64,000 nt of DNA from Hyphomonas jannaschiana VP2 (GTDB lineage Bacteria > Pseudomonadota > Alphaproteobacteria > Caulobacterales > Hyphomonadaceae): NCBI RefSeq assembly GCF_000685215.1, contig NZ_ARYJ01000001.1:1-64000 (forward strand), given 5' to 3'. The notes beneath the pieces were generated by a model. The model saw nothing but the letters and a program-made list of their open reading frames with translations, was not told the origin of the DNA and did no database searches. The first letter of the stretch is position 1, and every line of letters starts with the position of its first letter. Of the stretch, positions 17,637 to 37,391 are shown piece after piece. The translations under genes were made by a program, and so were the position numbers.

Positions 17637-18488
17637 CTACATCAGGGCGTAGCCCCTGGCGTTGATGTATTTCACCAGTTCCTGGGCTCGGCGGGCCGGG
17701 TCCGGGTGGGTGGACATGAATTCCGGCGGCCGCTGGCCTTTGGACTGGGCGTCCATCAGTTCCCACAGGCGCACAGACTGGCGCACGTCATAACCGGCAT
17801 TGTGCATGTAATCGACGCCAAGCTTGTCGGCTTCGAGCTCATGGTTGCGGCTATAGGGCAGGATCACGCCAAACTGCATGGCCGCGCCGCCCAGTGCACC
17901 AATTTCGCTCCCGTACTTGGACAGCGTATCGGACTGGGCAATGGCGATCTGGCCGACGGCAAGCCCCGTCTGCGCCAGCGTCGTCACCGACAGGCGCTCG
18001 GCCGCATGGCGGCCAACGACGTGGCCCGTCTCATGCCCAAGGACGGAAGACAGCTGGTCGTCATTCTCGGTCAGCTCGGTAATGCCGCGATACACGCCGA
18101 CCCGGTTACCCGGCATGACAAAGGCGTTGACGTCATCGGTATCGAAGACGGCCACGTCCCAGCTTTGCCCGGCGGCGATGTCGCCCTTCTGCTCAGCGCC
18201 GCGCACGGTCTTCTCCCAGACGTGCAGCACGCGGTTCTTGAGCTGCGAGTTCGCGGTCACCGGCGTCTGCGCCTTCATGTCGGTCCAGGCCGAAGCCGCC
18301 ATCGAGGCAACTTCCTGGTCACCGAACAGCAGCAGCTGGCTGCGGCCCGTCGCCGGATTGGTCTCGCACCCGCTGATGAATGGAAACACCGTACCGGCCG
18401 CGATGCCGGAAATGATCGCGCGGCGGGACAGGTTCACACGCGGCGCGCCCTCGAAAATGGCGCTGTCAATATCGATCAGTTTCGTCAT
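17637..18488 (-). CDS. M48 family metalloprotease lipoprotein (LoiP/YcaL-like)
   Basis: Zinc endopeptidase predicted to be lipid-anchored in the cell envelope and to act in outer-membrane protein quality control, by analogy with LoiP/BepA. The HETGH zinc motif has its histidines at residues 152 and 156, and the third ligand is E217 in ELEAD. The N-terminus has two arginines (SRRAIISG), a hydrophobic run and the lipobox ISGC with C41, so export may be by the Tat route. The start at MTKLIDIDSA has GAGGG seven bases upstream. It follows an envelope gene pair on the same strand. Length (283 residues) is normal. Confidence 0.88.
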   Translation of the reverse strand: MTKLIDIDSAIFEGAPRVNLSRRAIISGIAAGTVFPFISGCETNPATGRSQLLLFGDQEVASMAASAWTDMKAQTPVTANSQLKNRVLHVWEKTVRGAEQKGDIAAGQSWDVAVFDTDDVNAFVMPGNRVGVYRGITELTENDDQLSSVLGHETGHVVGRHAAERLSVTTLAQTGLAVGQIAIAQSDTLSKYGSEIGALGGAAMQFGVILPYSRNHELEADKLGVDYMHNAGYDVRQSVRLWELMDAQSKGQRPPEFMSTHPDPARRAQELVKYINARGYALM

Positions 18489-18603
18489 GTGCTTTCCCTC
18501 ACTCCGGCAGCACAAGGTTAGCTGCCCGCCTTCAAATTGCAATCGCGTCTGCGATGAACGCAGGCAAATCTCGCCGGTTCCGGCTGAACCCTTGCTGAAT
18601 GCG

Positions 18604-20529
18604 TCAGACGCTCTCGGCGTCGCGGACCAGAACGGCCGCCTGCTCCACCCAGCCTTCGCGCGTGATCCGGCCACCGAAATTGAGGTGTTCATCCATCCAG
18701 GCGACGTTTGCCGGCGTCCATTCAGCAATCTGGTCATAGTGCCAGACACCCAGCTCGTTCAGCAGGACCTGGATCTTGGGCCCGATGCCGCCGATCAGGG
18801 TCAGATCGTCCGGATGGCCTTCGACCGGGCCGTTCATCGCCATCGGGCGTTCCGGCACGATCGTCTCGTCGGTTTCGTAGGTTACGCCCTCTTCGGACGA
18901 CTCGTCTTCATCGGCCTCGTCGGACGCATCTTCCTCGTCCACGTCGCCTTCCGCGTCGTCCCAGGCCTCATCAGACGCGTCGTCCTCTTCATGGGTGTCG
19001 TCGTCATCGTCATCTTCATCTTCGGCGTCATCGTACGCTTCGTCTTCGTCCGTATCGGCGTCTTCATCGTCTTCGAAGTCGTCTTCATCGAAGTCTTCCT
19101 CTTCGAAATCAGCGTCTTCGTCGTCTATGTCGCCGGACTCGTCTTCGTCGTCATAGTCATCCGCCTCATCCGACTCTTCGTCTTCATCTTCATCGTCTTC
19201 AGCGTCGTCTTCTTCAGCATCATCCTCGAACGCGTCCGCCTCATCGGCGTCCACTCCGTATTCGTCTTCGCCGTCATCCGCTTCGTCATACTCTTCGTCC
19301 GAGAGCACATCCTCATCGGCATGATCGGCCTCGGCGAGGGATTCCTCTTCATCGTCGGAAACGTCTTCGAAGTCTGTCTCTTCCTCAGCCCCGGCCTCCG
19401 GGGCCTCGTCTTCAGCGGCTTCAGCCGTGTCCTCAACGAACGCCGCCGGAGCTTCTTCCTCAAATGGCGCAGCGTCTTCCTCGTCCGCTACCTCGACCTC
19501 GACGGTTTCGGTCCCGGCCAGCGTTTCAAACGCGGCCTCCTCGGGCGCTTCGTCTTTCACTTCCACGAAATCCGGTTCGGCCTCGTCCGGCAGCTCGGCG
19601 ACGGTCAGGCCCTCGGCCATGGCCTCGACCGCTTCGGTCATATCAGCTGCCGTGTCGGTGACTTCCAGCTCTTCCAGCATGGCTTCGGCGCCGGTCTTCT
19701 CAGCCACCGGCTCAGCCGCCGCGTCATCCGCGCCGCCCTCGAAATAGGCGAGCCGCCCTTCCAGGAACCGGTTGCGCCAGCGCAGGCGAGCCATTTCCTC
19801 ATTGGCATCCTCATCCGCAACGACAGGAACTTCGGCGGGAGCCTTGGCCAGCTCCGCCTCCAGCGCCTCGACGCGCTGCTTGAGATAGTCGGCCTGCCAT
19901 TTCAGCTTCGCCAGCCCCTCTTCATCGACAGACAGAGCCGGTTGAGCTGCCGGGGCGTCCTCAGCGACCACAGCCGCAGGTTCTGCCTCAGCAGCCGGAC
20001 CCGCTTCGATCTCTGCAAGCTGCGCTTCGAGATGTTTCACCCGGGCTTCGAGATGCCGGTTGCGCCAGGTCAGCGTCGGCGGTTCGGCCGCTTCGTTCTC
20101 AGCTGCTGGCGTGCCAGCCTCTTCGCTGGCCTCGTCCAAGCCGCCACGGCTCGGCGGCAGCACAATGGTCGGCGCATCGCGTTCCGTGGCCGGTTCGGCC
20201 CGCGGTGCCGAGGCCGCTTTCGCCGCTTCGGATCTCAGCGTCGTCAGCTCGGTCTTGGCCTTCTGCAGCTCTGCCGTCAGGTCGGAAATCTTGCGCGCCG
20301 ATGCATCAGCCACGCCGCCGCCCTCGCCTCTCTGGGCCCGCTGCGCCGCAAACAGGCGCTCGATCTCATCGCGCGCCTGATCCAGTTCCGTCAGCGCCAC
20401 ATCCTTGTCGACAATGGCCTTGCGCATCTTGCCAGTCAGCAGCATGCCCCGCACCGACCAGCCCAGCATCAGTGCGAACACGGTCGCGCCAGCCAGCACC
20501 ATCCACATATGTGTTACAAGCCAAGCCAT
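18604..20529 (-). CDS. acidic membrane protein with C-terminal helix-hairpin-helix domain
   Basis: A 641-residue protein of unknown function. Residues about 8-27 form one transmembrane helix, 30-110 look like a coiled coil, and 120-330 hold repeated RWRNRxLExR/WRNRHLEARV-like segments. About 330-560 is an extreme Asp/Glu-rich low-complexity stretch, and 576-635 is an HhH domain beginning LTLIGGIGPKIQVLLNELGV. That HhH type (with FGGRITREGWVEQA) is also found as an extension of NuoE and L21 in alphaproteobacteria. The ATG overlaps the stop of the upstream OmpA-type gene (TAATG), so the two are coupled. A scaffold anchored at the inner membrane is plausible but is inference. Confidence 0.75.
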   Translation of the reverse strand: MAWLVTHMWMVLAGATVFALMLGWSVRGMLLTGKMRKAIVDKDVALTELDQARDEIERLFAAQRAQRGEGGGVADASARKISDLTAELQKAKTELTTLRSEAAKAASAPRAEPATERDAPTIVLPPSRGGLDEASEEAGTPAAENEAAEPPTLTWRNRHLEARVKHLEAQLAEIEAGPAAEAEPAAVVAEDAPAAQPALSVDEEGLAKLKWQADYLKQRVEALEAELAKAPAEVPVVADEDANEEMARLRWRNRFLEGRLAYFEGGADDAAAEPVAEKTGAEAMLEELEVTDTAADMTEAVEAMAEGLTVAELPDEAEPDFVEVKDEAPEEAAFETLAGTETVEVEVADEEDAAPFEEEAPAAFVEDTAEAAEDEAPEAGAEEETDFEDVSDDEEESLAEADHADEDVLSDEEYDEADDGEDEYGVDADEADAFEDDAEEDDAEDDEDEDEESDEADDYDDEDESGDIDDEDADFEEEDFDEDDFEDDEDADTDEDEAYDDAEDEDDDDDDTHEEDDASDEAWDDAEGDVDEEDASDEADEDESSEEGVTYETDETIVPERPMAMNGPVEGHPDDLTLIGGIGPKIQVLLNELGVWHYDQIAEWTPANVAWMDEHLNFGGRITREGWVEQAAVLVRDAESV

Positions 20530-21989
20530 TAGTCGCTCCGTGTGAGAACCTTGATGCCGATCCGGCGATTTTTCACCTGACCGCCATCATTGTCATTAGA
20601 CTGCCCGGACGGGTCCGGGCCATAGCCAACCGCAGACAGACGCTGCCGGTCGCCCCCGGCTGCCGCCAAATAGGACATGACCGCTTCCGCCCGTGCCGCG
20701 CCGGATGCGGGGTCCGCCGCCGGATCGGCCTGTCCGCGAATTTCGATTAGCAGCTCAGATGGGCAGAGATGTGACACGGCCAGCAGTTTATCCAGCACCG
20801 CGCCGCTGGTGCGGGAAAGCCCGGTGCCGCTTTCATTGAACAGGATGGGGTTGGCGGCGAGCACGGCGTCAAATGCAGACTGGCAGGCCGCCGCGGGATC
20901 GGCCGCAAAATCGATCGCGGCGACTTCCGGCACTTCCACGTCGATGGGATCGGCCCAGATCGTGACCGGTACGGAATCGGGCCCGCTGGCCAGCGGGCCG
21001 GAGAGGTCCTCTTTCAGGAACTGGATGGCACTGGCAGGCGCCTCCCCTTCGACCGCAAAACCGGCATCGCCGTCGGCCGGATAGAAGCCCATCTCACCCT
21101 CCCGGAAGCGCGCAAACTCCGGCAGGCCCGCTTCGGCCAGGGCGATCCAGTTATCCGGCATGTCCGGGGCGATTTCCATCCGGTCGGTCACCTCGCCGGA
21201 CGCGTGGGCCTCAGCGATGCCGATCAGGTCACGGCGCTGGGTATCGCTGGCCACCTTGCCCGACAGGACCAGGACGTCGGCGCTGTGCGTTGCTGTCCAG
21301 ACCGGCAGGCCCTTGATCAGCGGCACGCCGCGATAAGGCGCGGCCAGTGCCGACACCTGCGCCGAGAGACGCGCACGCTCGGCCGCGTCCAGCTCGGTGC
21401 CGCCAACCCGCAATGTGTTGTCGCTGAGGCGCACCTCGCCGCTGTCCAGTTCCATGAGGAGGCCCAGCCCGAAGCGGGCAACGCCCTGCCAGTTTCCGCC
21501 CGGCGCCCCGGCGGCGACTTCCATCCGGTTTTCCGGCGTCTGGCCCCGCGACAGCCGCGTGGCTTCCGCCTCGATCTGGCTGGCAATCATGCGTGAAGGT
21601 ACATGGCCTGACAGGATGATCCGGCCGTCGGCCAGCTTTTCCGCGCGCCAGACAAAGGGCGACACAGGTTTGCCGGGATCGACCGCGACTTCCACAACCG
21701 TCACACCGCCGACGACGACGCCCCCGCCCCAGGTGGAGCGCAGAACGGTCTCTGCCGCGGCCATGGCGGCATCCTCTGAAGGGGCAGCCCCCTTCAGCAC
21801 GGCGCGCTGGCCGTTCATGCGCACATGCGCCCAGTCATATCCGTTTCGGGCAAGGGCGGCGTTGGCATCCTGCTCAAGCTGCGCGGCCAGGTTTGCAGGC
21901 CGCTGCGGAGACTGATACAGCCCCCACCATCCCGTTGCCACGAGGCCTACCAGCGCGACCGGCGCCAGCAGGTAATCGAGCATTTTCAT
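20529..21989 (-). CDS. OmpA-family envelope protein with BON-like repeats
   Basis: A 486-residue protein with an N-terminal membrane anchor or uncleaved signal (LLAPVALVGLVATGWWGL). It then has repeated BON-like segments (for example GRIILSGHVPSRM and DVLVLSGKVAS) and a C-terminal OmpA domain that binds peptidoglycan (ILFNESGTGLS; ELLIEIRGQADPAAD; RAEAVMSYLAAAG; GYGPD; NRRIGIKV). The start is uncertain: ATG codons at MKMLDY or 30 bases upstream are possible, and AGGAGG lies 15 bases before the former. It is translationally coupled to the acidic HhH protein downstream, suggesting the two work together at the envelope. Confidence 0.8.
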   Translation of the reverse strand: MKMLDYLLAPVALVGLVATGWWGLYQSPQRPANLAAQLEQDANAALARNGYDWAHVRMNGQRAVLKGAAPSEDAAMAAAETVLRSTWGGGVVVGGVTVVEVAVDPGKPVSPFVWRAEKLADGRIILSGHVPSRMIASQIEAEATRLSRGQTPENRMEVAAGAPGGNWQGVARFGLGLLMELDSGEVRLSDNTLRVGGTELDAAERARLSAQVSALAAPYRGVPLIKGLPVWTATHSADVLVLSGKVASDTQRRDLIGIAEAHASGEVTDRMEIAPDMPDNWIALAEAGLPEFARFREGEMGFYPADGDAGFAVEGEAPASAIQFLKEDLSGPLASGPDSVPVTIWADPIDVEVPEVAAIDFAADPAAACQSAFDAVLAANPILFNESGTGLSRTSGAVLDKLLAVSHLCPSELLIEIRGQADPAADPASGAARAEAVMSYLAAAGGDRQRLSAVGYGPDPSGQSNDNDGGQVKNRRIGIKVLTRSD

Positions 21990-22087: not shown

Positions 22088-22909
22088 ATGAAACGTCCGC
22101 CTGAAACCCTCACCTCCCCATCCAATCCGCTGATCAAGTCGCTGAAAGGCCTTGAGCGGAAAAAGGAGCGCCAATCCAGCGGTCTGTTCCTGGCCGAGGG
22201 CGCGCGCCTCGTGGAACAGGGCCTCGCCAATAACTGGCAGCCGGACACGCTGGTCGTCGCCGCCGCCGTTGCCGACCGGCCACATATTGCCGCCCTTGCC
22301 GACAAGGCAGAGGCCGCCGGCGCCCGGGTCGTGCTGGTGCCGGAACGGCTGATGTCGAAGATCACGCACAAGGACAACGCCCAGTCCGTCATCGCAACGT
22401 TCAGGCAGCGCCAGGTCACGCTTGATCAGCTGGAAGTCCGGTATAGTCCGCGCAAGTCGCTCTTCGTCGCCCTCTATGAAGTGCGCGATCCGGGCAATCT
22501 GGGCACGATTTTGCGGACCGCCGACTGCGCCGGGGCGGACGGGGTCATCCTCGTCGGAACCTGTTGTGATCCTTACAGTTTCGAGGCCGTGCGCGCCTCC
22601 ATGGGCTCGGTGTTCGACATGCCGTTTGCGGGCGCCTCCTATGAAGACTTCGAGGCCTGGCGCCGCAAATCCGGCATCGCCTCCGTCGCCGCCTCCGTGA
22701 ACGGCACCGTCCGCCACGATCTGGTGAACCTGCAACAGGATACAGTCATCCTGATGGGCAACGAACAGGCCGGCCTGCCCCCCGCCGTCGAAGCCGATTG
22801 CGACCAACTCGTCCTCATCCCCATGCGCGGCGGCGCGGATAGTCTGAACCTTGCGCAAGCCACCGCGATCATGGTCTATGAGGCCTGGCGGCAGCGGGAT
22901 TTCCAATGA
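22088..22909 (+). CDS. SpoU/TrmH-family RNA 2'-O-methyltransferase
   Basis: Predicted to methylate the 2'-OH of a ribose in rRNA or tRNA using SAM. The three SpoU motifs are clear: NLGTILRTAD (motif 1), GNEQAGLP (motif 2) and ADSLNLAQA (motif 3). The N-terminal third (SNPLIKSLKGLERKKERQSS) is the usual substrate-binding domain. The 273-residue length is typical of the RlmB/TsnR-like branch, and the exact target base cannot be told. No strong ribosome binding site precedes the ATG. It overlaps the next methyltransferase gene by four bases and diverges from the OmpA-type gene. Confidence 0.9.
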   Translation: MKRPPETLTSPSNPLIKSLKGLERKKERQSSGLFLAEGARLVEQGLANNWQPDTLVVAAAVADRPHIAALADKAEAAGARVVLVPERLMSKITHKDNAQSVIATFRQRQVTLDQLEVRYSPRKSLFVALYEVRDPGNLGTILRTADCAGADGVILVGTCCDPYSFEAVRASMGSVFDMPFAGASYEDFEAWRRKSGIASVAASVNGTVRHDLVNLQQDTVILMGNEQAGLPPAVEADCDQLVLIPMRGGADSLNLAQATAIMVYEAWRQRDFQ

Positions 22910-34035: not shown

Positions 34036-35400
34036 ATGAAAACCATTATCGAACCTTTCCGCATCAAATCGGTCGAACCGATCCGCATGACCACGCGTGA
34101 GGAGCGCGCGGACCTGCTGAAGGCGGCGAAGTACAATCTCTTCAAACTGCATTCAGACGATGTGATCATCGACCTCTTAACCGACAGCGGCACCTCGGCC
34201 ATGAGCGCGGCGCAGTGGGGTGCAGTCATGACGGGCGATGAGAGCTATGCCGGAGCGCCAAGCTTCTACCGGTTTGAAGCCGCGGTCCGTGACCTGATGG
34301 ATTTCAAGCACATCATCCCGACCCACCAGGGCCGCGCCGCCGAACACCTCTTGTTCAACCTGATCGCCAAGCCTGGCCACATCATCCCTTCCAACACGCA
34401 TTTCGACACGACCCGCGGCAATATCGAGGCGGCGGGCGCCGAAGCGGTGGACCTGCCGGTTGCGGAAGGCAAGGTCCCGTCCCTCGATCATCCGTTCAAG
34501 GGCAATATGGATCTTGAGGCCCTCGAAGCCCTGCTCCGCGAGAAGCGCGACTCCGTCCCCGCCGTGATGATGACCATCACCAACAATGCCGGCGGCGGCC
34601 AGCCAGCTAGCCTTGAGAACATCCGCGCTGCCGCGCAGATCGCCCAGCACTACCGCAAGCCCTTCTTCATCGATGGCTGCCGCTTCGCCGAGAATGCCTG
34701 GTTCATCAAGCTGCGAGAGCCCGGCCAGCAGGACCGCAGCATCAAGGCCATCATCCACGACATTTTCGAAGTCGCCGATGGCATGACGATGAGTGCCAAG
34801 AAAGATGCCTTCGCCAATATCGGTGGCTGGCTGGCACTGCGTGACGATGCGCTGGCCGAACGCGCCCGCACCCTGCTGATCCAGACCGAAGGCTTCCCCA
34901 CCTATGGCGGCCTTGCGGGCCGGGACCTCGACGCCATCGCGCAGGGCCTCTCGGAAATCATTGACGAGGATTACCTGCGCTACCGGGTGCGGACGAATGC
35001 CTACATCGCCGAAAAACTTGATGCGATGGGCGTGCCAGTGGTGAAGCCGGCGGGCGGCCATGCCGTCTTCGTCGATGCCCGCGCCTTCCTGCCTCACATC
35101 CCGCCGCTGGAATATCCAGGCCAAGCGCTGGCCTGCGCACTTTATGAAATGGGCGGTATCCGCGGCTGCGAGATCGGCACCGTCATGTTCGGCCGCAAAC
35201 CCGATGGCAGCGAGGAGCCAGCGCGGATGGACCTGGTCCGCCTTGCCATGCCCCGGCGTGTCTACACCCAGTCGCACGCGGACTATATCGTCGAGGTGTT
35301 CGAGGAACTCGCCGCCTCGAAGGACCATCTGCGCGGCCTGAAAATCGTGAAAGAGCCGCCGATGATGCGGCACTTCACGTCAGAATTTGAACCGCTCTAG
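34036..35400 (+). CDS. tnaA: tryptophanase (tryptophan indole-lyase)
   Basis: PLP enzyme that splits L-tryptophan to indole, pyruvate and ammonia. The PLP lysine is in MSAKKDAFANIGG, and THQGRAAEHLL and NNAGGGQP are family motifs. Two sites that separate tryptophanase from tyrosine phenol-lyase are of the tryptophanase type: FDTT keeps the Asp (phenol-lyase has Thr), and the C-terminal RHFT keeps the His (phenol-lyase has Phe). Start at MKTIIEPF, with GGAG upstream, gives 454 residues. No TnaC-like leader or tryptophan permease is adjacent. The stop codon shares a CTAG with the stop of the convergent phospholipase-like gene. Confidence 0.9.
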   Translation: MKTIIEPFRIKSVEPIRMTTREERADLLKAAKYNLFKLHSDDVIIDLLTDSGTSAMSAAQWGAVMTGDESYAGAPSFYRFEAAVRDLMDFKHIIPTHQGRAAEHLLFNLIAKPGHIIPSNTHFDTTRGNIEAAGAEAVDLPVAEGKVPSLDHPFKGNMDLEALEALLREKRDSVPAVMMTITNNAGGGQPASLENIRAAAQIAQHYRKPFFIDGCRFAENAWFIKLREPGQQDRSIKAIIHDIFEVADGMTMSAKKDAFANIGGWLALRDDALAERARTLLIQTEGFPTYGGLAGRDLDAIAQGLSEIIDEDYLRYRVRTNAYIAEKLDAMGVPVVKPAGGHAVFVDARAFLPHIPPLEYPGQALACALYEMGGIRGCEIGTVMFGRKPDGSEEPARMDLVRLAMPRRVYTQSHADYIVEVFEELAASKDHLRGLKIVKEPPMMRHFTSEFEPL

Positions 35401-37391
35401 GCTGCGTCGCGGGCGCGTTCGATCCACTCCTCGACTTCCTCTTCCATGAAGAGGTCGTCGCCGCGGCGGACGCGCTCGCCTTCCGGCGAATTCAGGAATT
35501 CAGTCGCCAGCAGGAACAAGGTGCGCGCGGGCGCTTCGGCCAGTTCCTTGCTGGTGCGGATGCCCGCGCCGACCATGATCTGAACGTCATGCACGCGCAG
35601 GCCCGGTACTTCCATCATCAGCTTCGTCTGATCCTGCCAGTCACGCAGGGTTTCGGAGTCGATATAGTGGACGTCCAGCAGGAAGGCCGTCTCCTCGATA
35701 TCGCAATCGAGCAGATCGCCGATCGTGAAGATGCCGACATCTTCGAGGCGCGCGGCCGTCTTCGGTCCGATGGACGGCGCATCGACGACAGGGCTTTCGC
35801 GCGTCAGGCCGGAAGAGCGGACATGCGGCGCGTCGGCGGAAGCATCGTCTTCTTCCTCTGAAGCGGCAATCTCATCCACTTCATCCCCGGACACTTCTTC
35901 GGCCGAGTCGTCATATTCCTCGGCTTCGTAATCGTCTTCGTCCTCATATTCGGACTCTTCGTAGTCCTCTTCCTCGTCATACTCCTCGGACTCGTCGTCT
36001 TCGTCGTATTCCTCATCATCCTCGTCTTCGTCGAAGTCCTCGTCGTCTTCATCTTCCTCGTCGAAGTCTTCGTCTTCTTCTTCGTCGTCCTCGTACTCAT
36101 CCTCGTCTTCGTCGGACTCGTACGCCTCATCGTCTTCGTCCTCGTCATCGCCAGCGCTGAGTTCGGCTTCTTCTTCGATCTCGGCGTCCACATCGAGTCC
36201 CGCCTCTTCGATGGCGGCGAGGTCTGCTTCGTCGAGGATCAGCTCTTCTTCCACATCGACGTCGTCTTCTACGTCGAGAGCCTCCGCTTCGACGTCATTG
36301 CTCTCGATTTCCCCGACAGCGATCTCTTCAGCATCAGCCTCGATCTCCGCTGCTTCGTCGAGGATGATGTCCTCCTCGGCGATTTCAGCTTCCGGTGCTT
36401 CGGTAACGACCGGGGCCTCCCCTTCCGGCAGCACATGGGCCGTACCGATCGGGCGGATTTCCTGCTTGTCGAGCTCCTTCAGCGGCACACGGAGCACCTG
36501 CGCCGCATGCTTCTTCCGGATGATCTTGTCGTCTTCCGGCAGGGTCTTGATCACTTTGCCGGTCTTCTGGAATTCCTTGTACATGCGCTCGACCTGCGCG
36601 CGATCATTCACATCGGCGAGCTTCGCCGTGATCCAGCGCAGCGGAATGTCCAGCGTCTCGATATAGCCCTGCAGTGTAAGGCCGACCTTCGGCGGGGCAA
36701 CGGCTGCCTCTTCCACTGCCTGGGTCACCAATACGGCAAAGCCTGCCGTGGCATAGGCGACGAGTTCGGCAATGCCTTCGCGCATCGTGTCATCCAGACC
36801 GGACGGCGGATGAGAGACGCCGCGGTCCAGATCGTAATGGTCGATGAAGGTGTTGTAGAACGTGTTCGACAGCGTCGCGCCTTCGACCACCATGTCGGCG
36901 ACGAAGCCCGGCCCGGCCGGCACGCGGATGTCCGGATAGCCATTGGCCTCGATTATCTCGTCGATCACGTCCCGGCTCTTGGCGATCGACCATTCGACGG
37001 CGCGGTGGATGACCCCCTCTTCCTCTGTCTGTCCCGTATGGAAAGGCTGGATCGGGTCCGCGTAATAATGGCTCAGTACGCCGAGCGCATAGGCCGCCTT
37101 GCTCCATTTCTTTGCGCGGAGAAGTTCGACCGAACGGGCGTACCATTCCATCGCCTTGCCGGGCGCTCCGCCCCACAGGCCTTCATTCACGTGACAGACG
37201 TGATTCTTGAAGTCCCTGAACTTCGCATCCGGTGCCTTGGCACCTTCCAGCAGATGCTCATGGTGCACCAGGAAGACCGATTTCCAGGCCTCCCCCTGCT
37301 CCCCGCCAATGAGCGACAGAGCATCCAGCGCGATATAGTGATGGGTAGAACGGCAACGATGGGCACGAACGACACGCTCGAGCAGAGACAT
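35397..37391 (-). CDS. zinc phospholipase C-like domain fused to acidic linker and DUF4332-like domain
   Basis: A 664-residue three-part protein. Residues 1-240 resemble zinc-dependent phospholipase C / S1-P1 nuclease folds, with candidate metal ligands in THHYIALDAL (H17), LVHHEH, LSHYYADPIQPFHTG (H108, D112, H118) and IHRAVEW (H129, E133). Residues about 325-520 are an Asp/Glu-rich linker with long runs of acidic residues and tyrosines. Residues 535-644 are a tandem HhH segment of the DUF4332 type (APSIGPKTAARLEDVGI; VPGLRVHDVQIMVGAGI). No signal peptide is seen, unlike secreted phospholipases C. GAGGAG precedes the ATG. Substrate and role are unknown; a cytosolic role is inferred. Confidence 0.8.
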   Translation of the reverse strand: MSLLERVVRAHRCRSTHHYIALDALSLIGGEQGEAWKSVFLVHHEHLLEGAKAPDAKFRDFKNHVCHVNEGLWGGAPGKAMEWYARSVELLRAKKWSKAAYALGVLSHYYADPIQPFHTGQTEEEGVIHRAVEWSIAKSRDVIDEIIEANGYPDIRVPAGPGFVADMVVEGATLSNTFYNTFIDHYDLDRGVSHPPSGLDDTMREGIAELVAYATAGFAVLVTQAVEEAAVAPPKVGLTLQGYIETLDIPLRWITAKLADVNDRAQVERMYKEFQKTGKVIKTLPEDDKIIRKKHAAQVLRVPLKELDKQEIRPIGTAHVLPEGEAPVVTEAPEAEIAEEDIILDEAAEIEADAEEIAVGEIESNDVEAEALDVEDDVDVEEELILDEADLAAIEEAGLDVDAEIEEEAELSAGDDEDEDDEAYESDEDEDEYEDDEEEDEDFDEEDEDDEDFDEDEDDEEYDEDDESEEYDEEEDYEESEYEDEDDYEAEEYDDSAEEVSGDEVDEIAASEEEDDASADAPHVRSSGLTRESPVVDAPSIGPKTAARLEDVGIFTIGDLLDCDIEETAFLLDVHYIDSETLRDWQDQTKLMMEVPGLRVHDVQIMVGAGIRTSKELAEAPARTLFLLATEFLNSPEGERVRRGDDLFMEEEVEEWIERARDAA

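Follow-up and report, generated by a model that had tools for sequence, protein, structure and literature searches.

The first 64,000 nucleotides of contig NZ_ARYJ01000001.1 of Hyphomonas jannaschiana VP2 (assembly GCF_000685215.1), called the window here, carry two adjoining genes on the minus strand that span positions 18604–21989. The first gene encodes a protein with BON repeats and an OmpA-like domain, and the second encodes a 641-residue protein with a helix-hairpin-helix (HhH) domain at its C-terminus. An earlier sequence-only reading had placed both genes here, joined by a TAATG in which stop and start codon share one base, and had described the second product as a membrane helix, a coil, some 230 very acidic residues and the HhH domain. 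All of this was confirmed; the acidic tract holds 137 aspartates and glutamates (D/E) and no lysine or arginine (K/R). The open reading frame (ORF) of the first gene is open to 22019, which corresponds to 496 residues. A start at 21989, residue 11 of that frame, agrees with a nearly invariant methionine (M11) among 25 aligned relatives. The two genes overlap by one or four bases in all 16 genus loci that show the downstream gene; the remaining 14 of the 30 loci are on the other strand or broken off. A GGAG within the first gene may be the ribosome-binding site of the second, and a similar GGAG lies inside the first gene in genus orthologues as well. Coupled translation would aid the pairing of the two proteins.

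Recurrence of the gene pair

Within the genus Hyphomonas, 35 of the 37 genomes contain a match to the first gene over almost its whole length. No such match was found in G024, and in the fragmented genome G015 the HhH gene sits at a contig end, so that the assembly may simply lack the first gene. Of 150 genomes searched in the order, 125 matched a profile of the HhH protein. The matches listed include 54 places outside the family of the window, all of which were fetched. Among them, an OmpA/BON-like gene adjoins 34 of 36 membrane-HhH genes on the same strand, and two membrane-HhH genes stand alone (L182, L225). Six NuoE genes, six L21 genes, a locus cut by a contig end (L215) and a wax ester synthase (L186) were also identified at these places; no OmpA partner was seen beside the 12 NuoE and L21 genes. 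By the profiles that we made, 25 of the 34 partners have both OmpA and BON, seven have BON only and two have OmpA only.

The pair was also found at greater distances, in line with the co-occurrence across alphaproteobacteria that the sequence-only reading had proposed as a check. Of 142 genomes sampled across the class, 13 (our own included) match at 1e-6: the pair is present in G129, G139 and G176, a membrane-HhH gene without a detected partner in G171 and G190, and the other seven are NuoE, L21 or were not resolved. In 79 loci from named genomes, a script found the pair in 36, and L247 was added by eye. These include Hyphomicrobiales (L289, L296, L306, L314) and Pseudooctadecabacter (L304), and most of the other loci are NuoE, L21 or protein-O-like genes.

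The genome carries a second such pair outside the window (contig C2, L038 1210–4261), in which a 402-residue BON/OmpA gene is followed after 46 bases by a 598-residue membrane-HhH gene. The larger product has the same HhH domain, preceded by helical segments that repeat, and it lacks the acidic tract. Its OmpA partner passes the Pfam cut-off for PF00691 with 82 bits and keeps the peptidoglycan loop. Both genes of the second pair were found in 41 of the 42 genus genomes; G030, an assembly in 520 contigs, is the exception. G024, from which the first pair is absent, retains the second. A gene for a caspase/FGE-sulfatase protein lies 3′ of the second pair (L038 4378–6111).

The surroundings of the pair change with distance. 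An M48 metalloprotease gene adjoins it in all 11 genus loci and in 11 of 21 loci from the rest of the family, and in none of the fetched stretches beyond the family of the window. A gene that we take to encode a TrmH-type RNA methyltransferase stands beside it in all 11 genus loci, in 19 of the 21 from the rest of the family and in 13 of 18 from family f3. Neither neighbour occurs in the 27 fetched stretches of families f4 and f5 and of other orders, a set that includes one locus without an HhH partner (L048). As both neighbours are confined to nearer relatives, the two genes stay paired where the gene order around them has changed. They form a unit that returns in many relatives, and since it does so across families, the pairing is not due to chance. 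It is highly improbable that two unrelated envelope genes merely share an operon. Loci with an HhH gene and no OmpA gene, or with an OmpA/BON gene beside an HhH-less partner, would fit such an arrangement; pairing across families and orders amid differing neighbours, twice in one genome, argues against it.

Architecture of the two proteins

The first protein was assigned to the OmpA family by the sequence-only reading. This holds for the fold, since Foldseek finds OmpA, Pal and MotB domains for the AlphaFold2 model (mean predicted local distance difference test score, pLDDT, 87), but the Pfam match to PF00691 falls just short (26.3 bits against a cut-off of 27.2, E 9.6e-6), and there are BON repeats besides. 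Pfam BON (PF04972) is matched with 41 bits against a cut-off of 27 (E 2.4e-10). About five BON-like repeats were counted, a number read from the secondary-structure string of the model. The protein is predicted to cross the inner membrane once with its N-terminus inside, which would place the repeats and the OmpA-like domain in the periplasm.

In OmpA-like domains, the loop that binds the peptidoglycan ligand follows the motif GHTD...LSxxRA. The corresponding loop of the window protein reads GQAD; D432 and R443 are kept, and four residues between them are deleted. A simple pattern finds the signature in six of 30 genus orthologues, the window protein not among them, and four more have a near-canonical loop (L013, L015, L018, L025). 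The loop is kept in the partners from Henriciella and family f3 and lost in Ponticaulis (L263, L265) and in L262. Judged by sequence, most of the genus, the window protein included, has a degraded loop. With this loop degraded and with some partners elsewhere in the order, among the matches listed, showing a BON-like profile only, we rejected a peptidoglycan tether as the constant function of the window protein, and the peptidoglycan-binding partner of the sequence-only reading did not hold up.

The pair could instead maintain the outer membrane or cell wall, with BON repeats that bind lipid or form a ring, an M48 protease resembling BepA or LoiP, and an HhH domain that is only regulatory or vestigial. 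A BON domain of DolP binds anionic phospholipid (PMC7806268), and BonA, according to the title of a paper on it, forms a divisome-localized decamer (PMC8406262). The M48 neighbour resembles both BepA and LoiP, each far under the cut-off, and by our own profiles partners with BON only outnumber those with OmpA only. Against this, M48 adjacency is seen within the family only, and Pfam finds no family, BON included, in L191, the one BON-only partner tested. Furthermore, 34 of 38 membrane partners beside OmpA/BON genes carry the HhH domain, though the profile used to find them includes it. We consider this explanation unlikely.

The second protein begins with a membrane helix. No K/R precedes this helix and at least one follows it in 33 of 35 membrane-HhH sequences; the exceptions are L178 and L200, the latter due to a wrong start. 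From this K/R placement, the HhH half is predicted to be cytoplasmic, so that it makes sense to see the pair as bridging the inner membrane. The trans-envelope scaffold of the sequence-only reading survives to this extent, but not at its peptidoglycan-binding end. The coil motifs of the window protein read W-x3-[YFH/L]L-x2-R and lie within residues 153–264. All 52 rows examined (51 genomes) have one or more related motifs, and a narrower pattern is missing from 10 of 35 rows, including the short f4 and f5 proteins and the second pair.

The strength of the acidic tract varies by degrees. It reaches 44 D/E per 50 residues in some genus orthologues and is weak (12–19 per 50) in seven of 30, whereas 22 rows (21 genomes) from other genera have at most 25 per 50. 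Most of the genus thus has a strong tract, about a quarter of it has none, and elsewhere the tract is nearly absent. We rejected it as a defining part because it is absent in many orthologues, and of the conservation expected by the sequence-only reading the gene pair stood and the acidic region did not. In three f4 proteins (L050, L052, L187), the net charge of the linker is positive. The linkers of L050 and L052 are rich in lysine, alanine and proline, a composition known from histone-H1-like DNA binders, and KPGPKPG-like repeats follow the HhH domain; in L052 a DUF2853 domain follows as well. Membrane-HhH proteins range from 160 (L212) to 889 residues (L170), with an ORF of 1241 residues in L314. 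Given this spread in length, the constant parts are the membrane helix and the HhH domain.

Table 1. Features of the gene pair and its surroundings in the window.
Feature	Position	Strand	Basis or remark
Tandem-BON/OmpA-like inner-membrane protein gene (predicted location)	20529..21989	−	486 residues from ATG at 21989; Pfam, alignment, model, Foldseek
Predicted membrane helix of OmpA/BON protein (residues 12–35 of 496)	21915..21986	−	AlphaFold2 helix; hydrophobic, K/R before it
About five BON-like β-α-β-β repeats, predicted periplasmic (residues 64–358)	20946..21830	−	Model secondary structure, Pfam BON, Rv0899 match
OmpA-like domain, peptidoglycan-binding loop degraded	20541..20897	−	Pfam, alignment, Foldseek
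GGAG, possible ribosome-binding site of HhH gene, inside OmpA gene	20536..20539	−	Putative role
TAATG, one-base overlap of stop and start	20527..20531	−	TAA 20531–20529, ATG 20529–20527
Membrane-HhH protein gene	18604..20529	−	641 residues; ORF, profile matches, K/R placement
N-terminal membrane helix (about residues 4–22)	20464..20520	−	No K/R before, four after
Three coil motifs WxxxxLxxR (residues 153, 209, 249)	19738..20073	−	Sequence pattern
Acidic tract, 230 residues	18865..19554	−	Composition
C-terminal HhH domain, GIGP hairpin intact	18607..18828	−	Net charge −6 over 62 residues; profiles, model
M48 family metalloprotease gene	17637..18488	−	Downstream neighbour, same direction, about 115 bases off; putative member of the system
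TrmH-type RNA methyltransferase gene (presumed)	22088..22909	+	Divergent neighbour; named from sequence

A promoter scan found a single weak promoter-like site, which lies within the OmpA gene (0.4 in shuffled sequences), and the number of terminator-like sites of the locus was at shuffle level. An 884-residue ORF on the opposite strand (17878–20532) was taken as a shadow of the acidic codons, because the domains and orthologues are on the minus strand.

The HhH domain and its possible ligand

Profile matches bear out the likeness of the HhH domain to extensions of NuoE and L21 that the sequence-only reading had noticed. The tail matches NuoE (8.2e-27), the phasin PhaH (1.6e-18), L21 (4.3e-17) and S2 (6.7e-16), all far under the whole-protein cut-offs, as expected for a shared tail. 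With this homology and its GIGP hairpin, the domain belongs to the alphaproteobacterial HhH tail module. The genome of the window has HhH tails on NuoE, ribosomal L21, a phasin and ribosomal S1 (L039, L040, L041, L042). Residues D7, G27, Q33, A35, W37, G53, W60 and Q63 are invariant in 86 HhH sequences. The GxG hairpin is intact in all 33 NuoE, all 14 L21 and 99 of 121 membrane forms; two of the 22 membrane forms scored as lost are a parsing slip (L221) and a sequence that does have GIG (L080).

According to a review, PhaH binds granules through its N-terminus and DNA nonspecifically through its HhH domain (PMC13052382). Our preferred explanation, which we advance tentatively and with less than even confidence, is that the two genes encode one inner-membrane link whose cytoplasmic HhH domain docks to nucleoid DNA without sequence preference. 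In this link, the second protein would cross the membrane once with its N-terminus outside, and its coil, long flexible linker and HhH domain would lie in the cytoplasm. The two proteins would probably meet through their membrane helices or coils. The HhH domain would be the docking end, with nucleoid DNA as the likeliest ligand by analogy with PhaH. The linker would act as a spacer; its strong acidity in most Hyphomonas should keep the docking domain off the membrane and may loosen the grip of that domain on DNA. Homology to PhaH, the frequent adjacency of the two genes, persistence of the pairing amid changing neighbours, the second pair and the K/R topology all speak for such a link. The RadA/RAD51, Hel308 and polymerase IV neighbours of the HhH fold, described below, and the lysine-rich linkers of L050 and L052 also count in its favour.

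Several observations weigh against it. The acidic tract should repel DNA, and the HhH domain itself is negative, with a mean net charge of −2.9 in 121 membrane forms and −6 in the window protein. Within this tail module, nonspecific DNA binding is reported for PhaH, and by its charge the window domain would be a poor candidate. Of the 34 pairs, at least 12, all from family f3, have lost the GxG hairpin and kept the partner. Thus, the charge and the lost hairpins tell against a DNA ligand for the window protein and for family f3. Foldseek gave no match to the HhH model (mean pLDDT 93) in the PDB at E <0.001, the best being 0.61. In a second structural comparison, the N-terminal domains of RadA/RAD51 scored highest (Z up to 7.2), the HhH domains of Hel308 and polymerase IV were middling (Z about 5–7), and NusA AR2, a protein-binding domain, was among the top neighbours (Z 6.7); SAM domains were weaker (Z about 4). 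The top values may reflect only a common arrangement of the fold. With neighbours of both kinds, the fold decides neither for DNA nor for protein.

The same membrane link could instead dock to protein, either a common receptor or other HhH tails, and so gather or space ribosomes, complex I, granules and the envelope pair. Conservation extends over the whole HhH domain, beyond the hairpin, and the 12 hairpin-less f3 pairs largely retain HFDQIAAW...W. The negative charge, the NusA AR2 and SAM neighbours and the occurrence of the tail on proteins of very different complexes point the same way. However, the hairpin is intact in NuoE, L21 and most membrane forms, as one would expect if it bound nucleic acid, and the DNA binding described for PhaH also stands against it. 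As the evidence on the ligand is mixed, we keep DNA as the tentative choice and regard protein docking as a real, if lesser, possibility.

Other observations count against a fixed two-part link with nucleoid DNA. No match to the HhH profile was found in 25 of the 150 order genomes, and those listed belong mostly to families f2 and f5. Among the 54 listed places, four membrane proteins beside OmpA/BON genes lack the HhH domain. Elsewhere the corresponding locus has an HhH gene and no OmpA gene (L242/L277, L255, L258, L261, L267, L280), and in L172/L248 the partner ORF has only 159 residues. The hairpin is also gone in L255, L258 and L261 and is intact in L267 and L280, so loss of the hairpin and loss of the partner are not strictly coupled. 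Anchoring of the window protein to peptidoglycan is doubtful for the reasons given above.

A broader and rather improbable extension is that the HhH tail is a general alphaproteobacterial docking tag. L21, S1 and S2, NuoE, protein-O, phasins and wax ester synthase, and the present pair would then all attach to the nucleoid or be spaced along it, with the OmpA/BON pair as the envelope end. The charge of the linker, acidic in Hyphomonas and basic in part of another family, would tune the hold on the nucleoid.

Comparison with known systems

PhaH of Caulobacter crescentus (NF045508) has, like the window protein, a C-terminal HhH domain (67.7 bits, window residues 519–634) and an anchor at the other end. 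PhaH anchors to polyhydroxybutyrate granules, whereas the window protein would anchor to the membrane. We rejected membership in PhaH, as the score is far from the equivalog cut-off of 250 bits and covers the C-terminal half only. A wax ester synthase/diacylglycerol acyltransferase with an HhH tail (L186 2881–4662) offers a storage-granule parallel to the HhH phasins.

Protein-O of the light-harvesting reaction-centre complex (RC-LH1) of Dinoroseobacter shibae (PDB 8yy9 chain O; PMC12079452) also has an N-terminal membrane part, a flexible stretch and a homologous HhH domain (E 5.7e-17). Section 2.3 of that paper describes the HhH domain as invisible in the map and calls the function unknown (PMC12079452). 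Protein-O differs in having two N-terminal helices within a photosynthetic complex and a gene between nuoE and nuoF, and the same section mentions no OmpA partner (PMC12079452). The window protein was not taken as a protein-O, since it has one N-terminal helix and no phototrophic host; no Photo_RC match was found in the genome. Protein-O-like membrane-HhH genes lie directly 3′ of an HhH-tailed NuoE gene in L281, L292, L301, L302, L307, L317–L320 and L323, mostly in Rhodobacteraceae.

Rv0899 (ArfA/OmpATb) of Mycobacterium tuberculosis, which has an N-terminal membrane anchor, carries BON followed by an OmpA-like domain, as the first protein does, and is the best PDB match of its model (2l26, E 1.9e-8). 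The window protein differs in having about five BON-like repeats, and it scores 28.9 bits against a cut-off of 81 for the ArfA N-terminal family NF051434. We know of no HhH partner of Rv0899. The C-terminal extensions of NuoE, L21 and S2 (PRK12373, PRK12278, PRK12311) are the same HhH module on soluble carriers; L079 in another genome, named from its sequence, resembles S2 with an HhH tail. The layout of the HhH protein also recalls division proteins of the ZipA type, which have an N-out single membrane helix, a long flexible charged linker and a globular cytoplasmic domain, unrelated to the one described here.

No paper describing the gene pair was found by title or abstract start, mostly outside subscription journals, and the literature searched held no account of a common function of HhH tails. 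The parts are already known, and the conserved membrane/periplasm pair carrying an HhH tail, as predicted from sequence, appears to be new. That ribosomal, respiratory, photosynthetic, storage and envelope proteins share an HhH docking domain has so far come to notice case by case, as with PhaH and protein-O. A recurrent two-gene membrane version, with two copies in one genome and outside any large known complex, offers a clean handle on the HhH ligand. Hyphomonas bud from stalks, and if the ligand is DNA, the pair would give such bacteria a dedicated connection from envelope to nucleoid.

HhH genes of alphaproteobacterial type were also seen in metagenome-assembled genomes labelled Campylobacterota/Campylobacterales (L298, L285) and Acidobacteria (L246), which are probably mis-binned contigs. 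The window itself holds a second protein with an acidic tract and an HhH domain: at about 35397–37391 on the minus strand, a zinc-dependent phospholipase C-like protein carries a long acidic tract followed by DUF4332/HHH_5.

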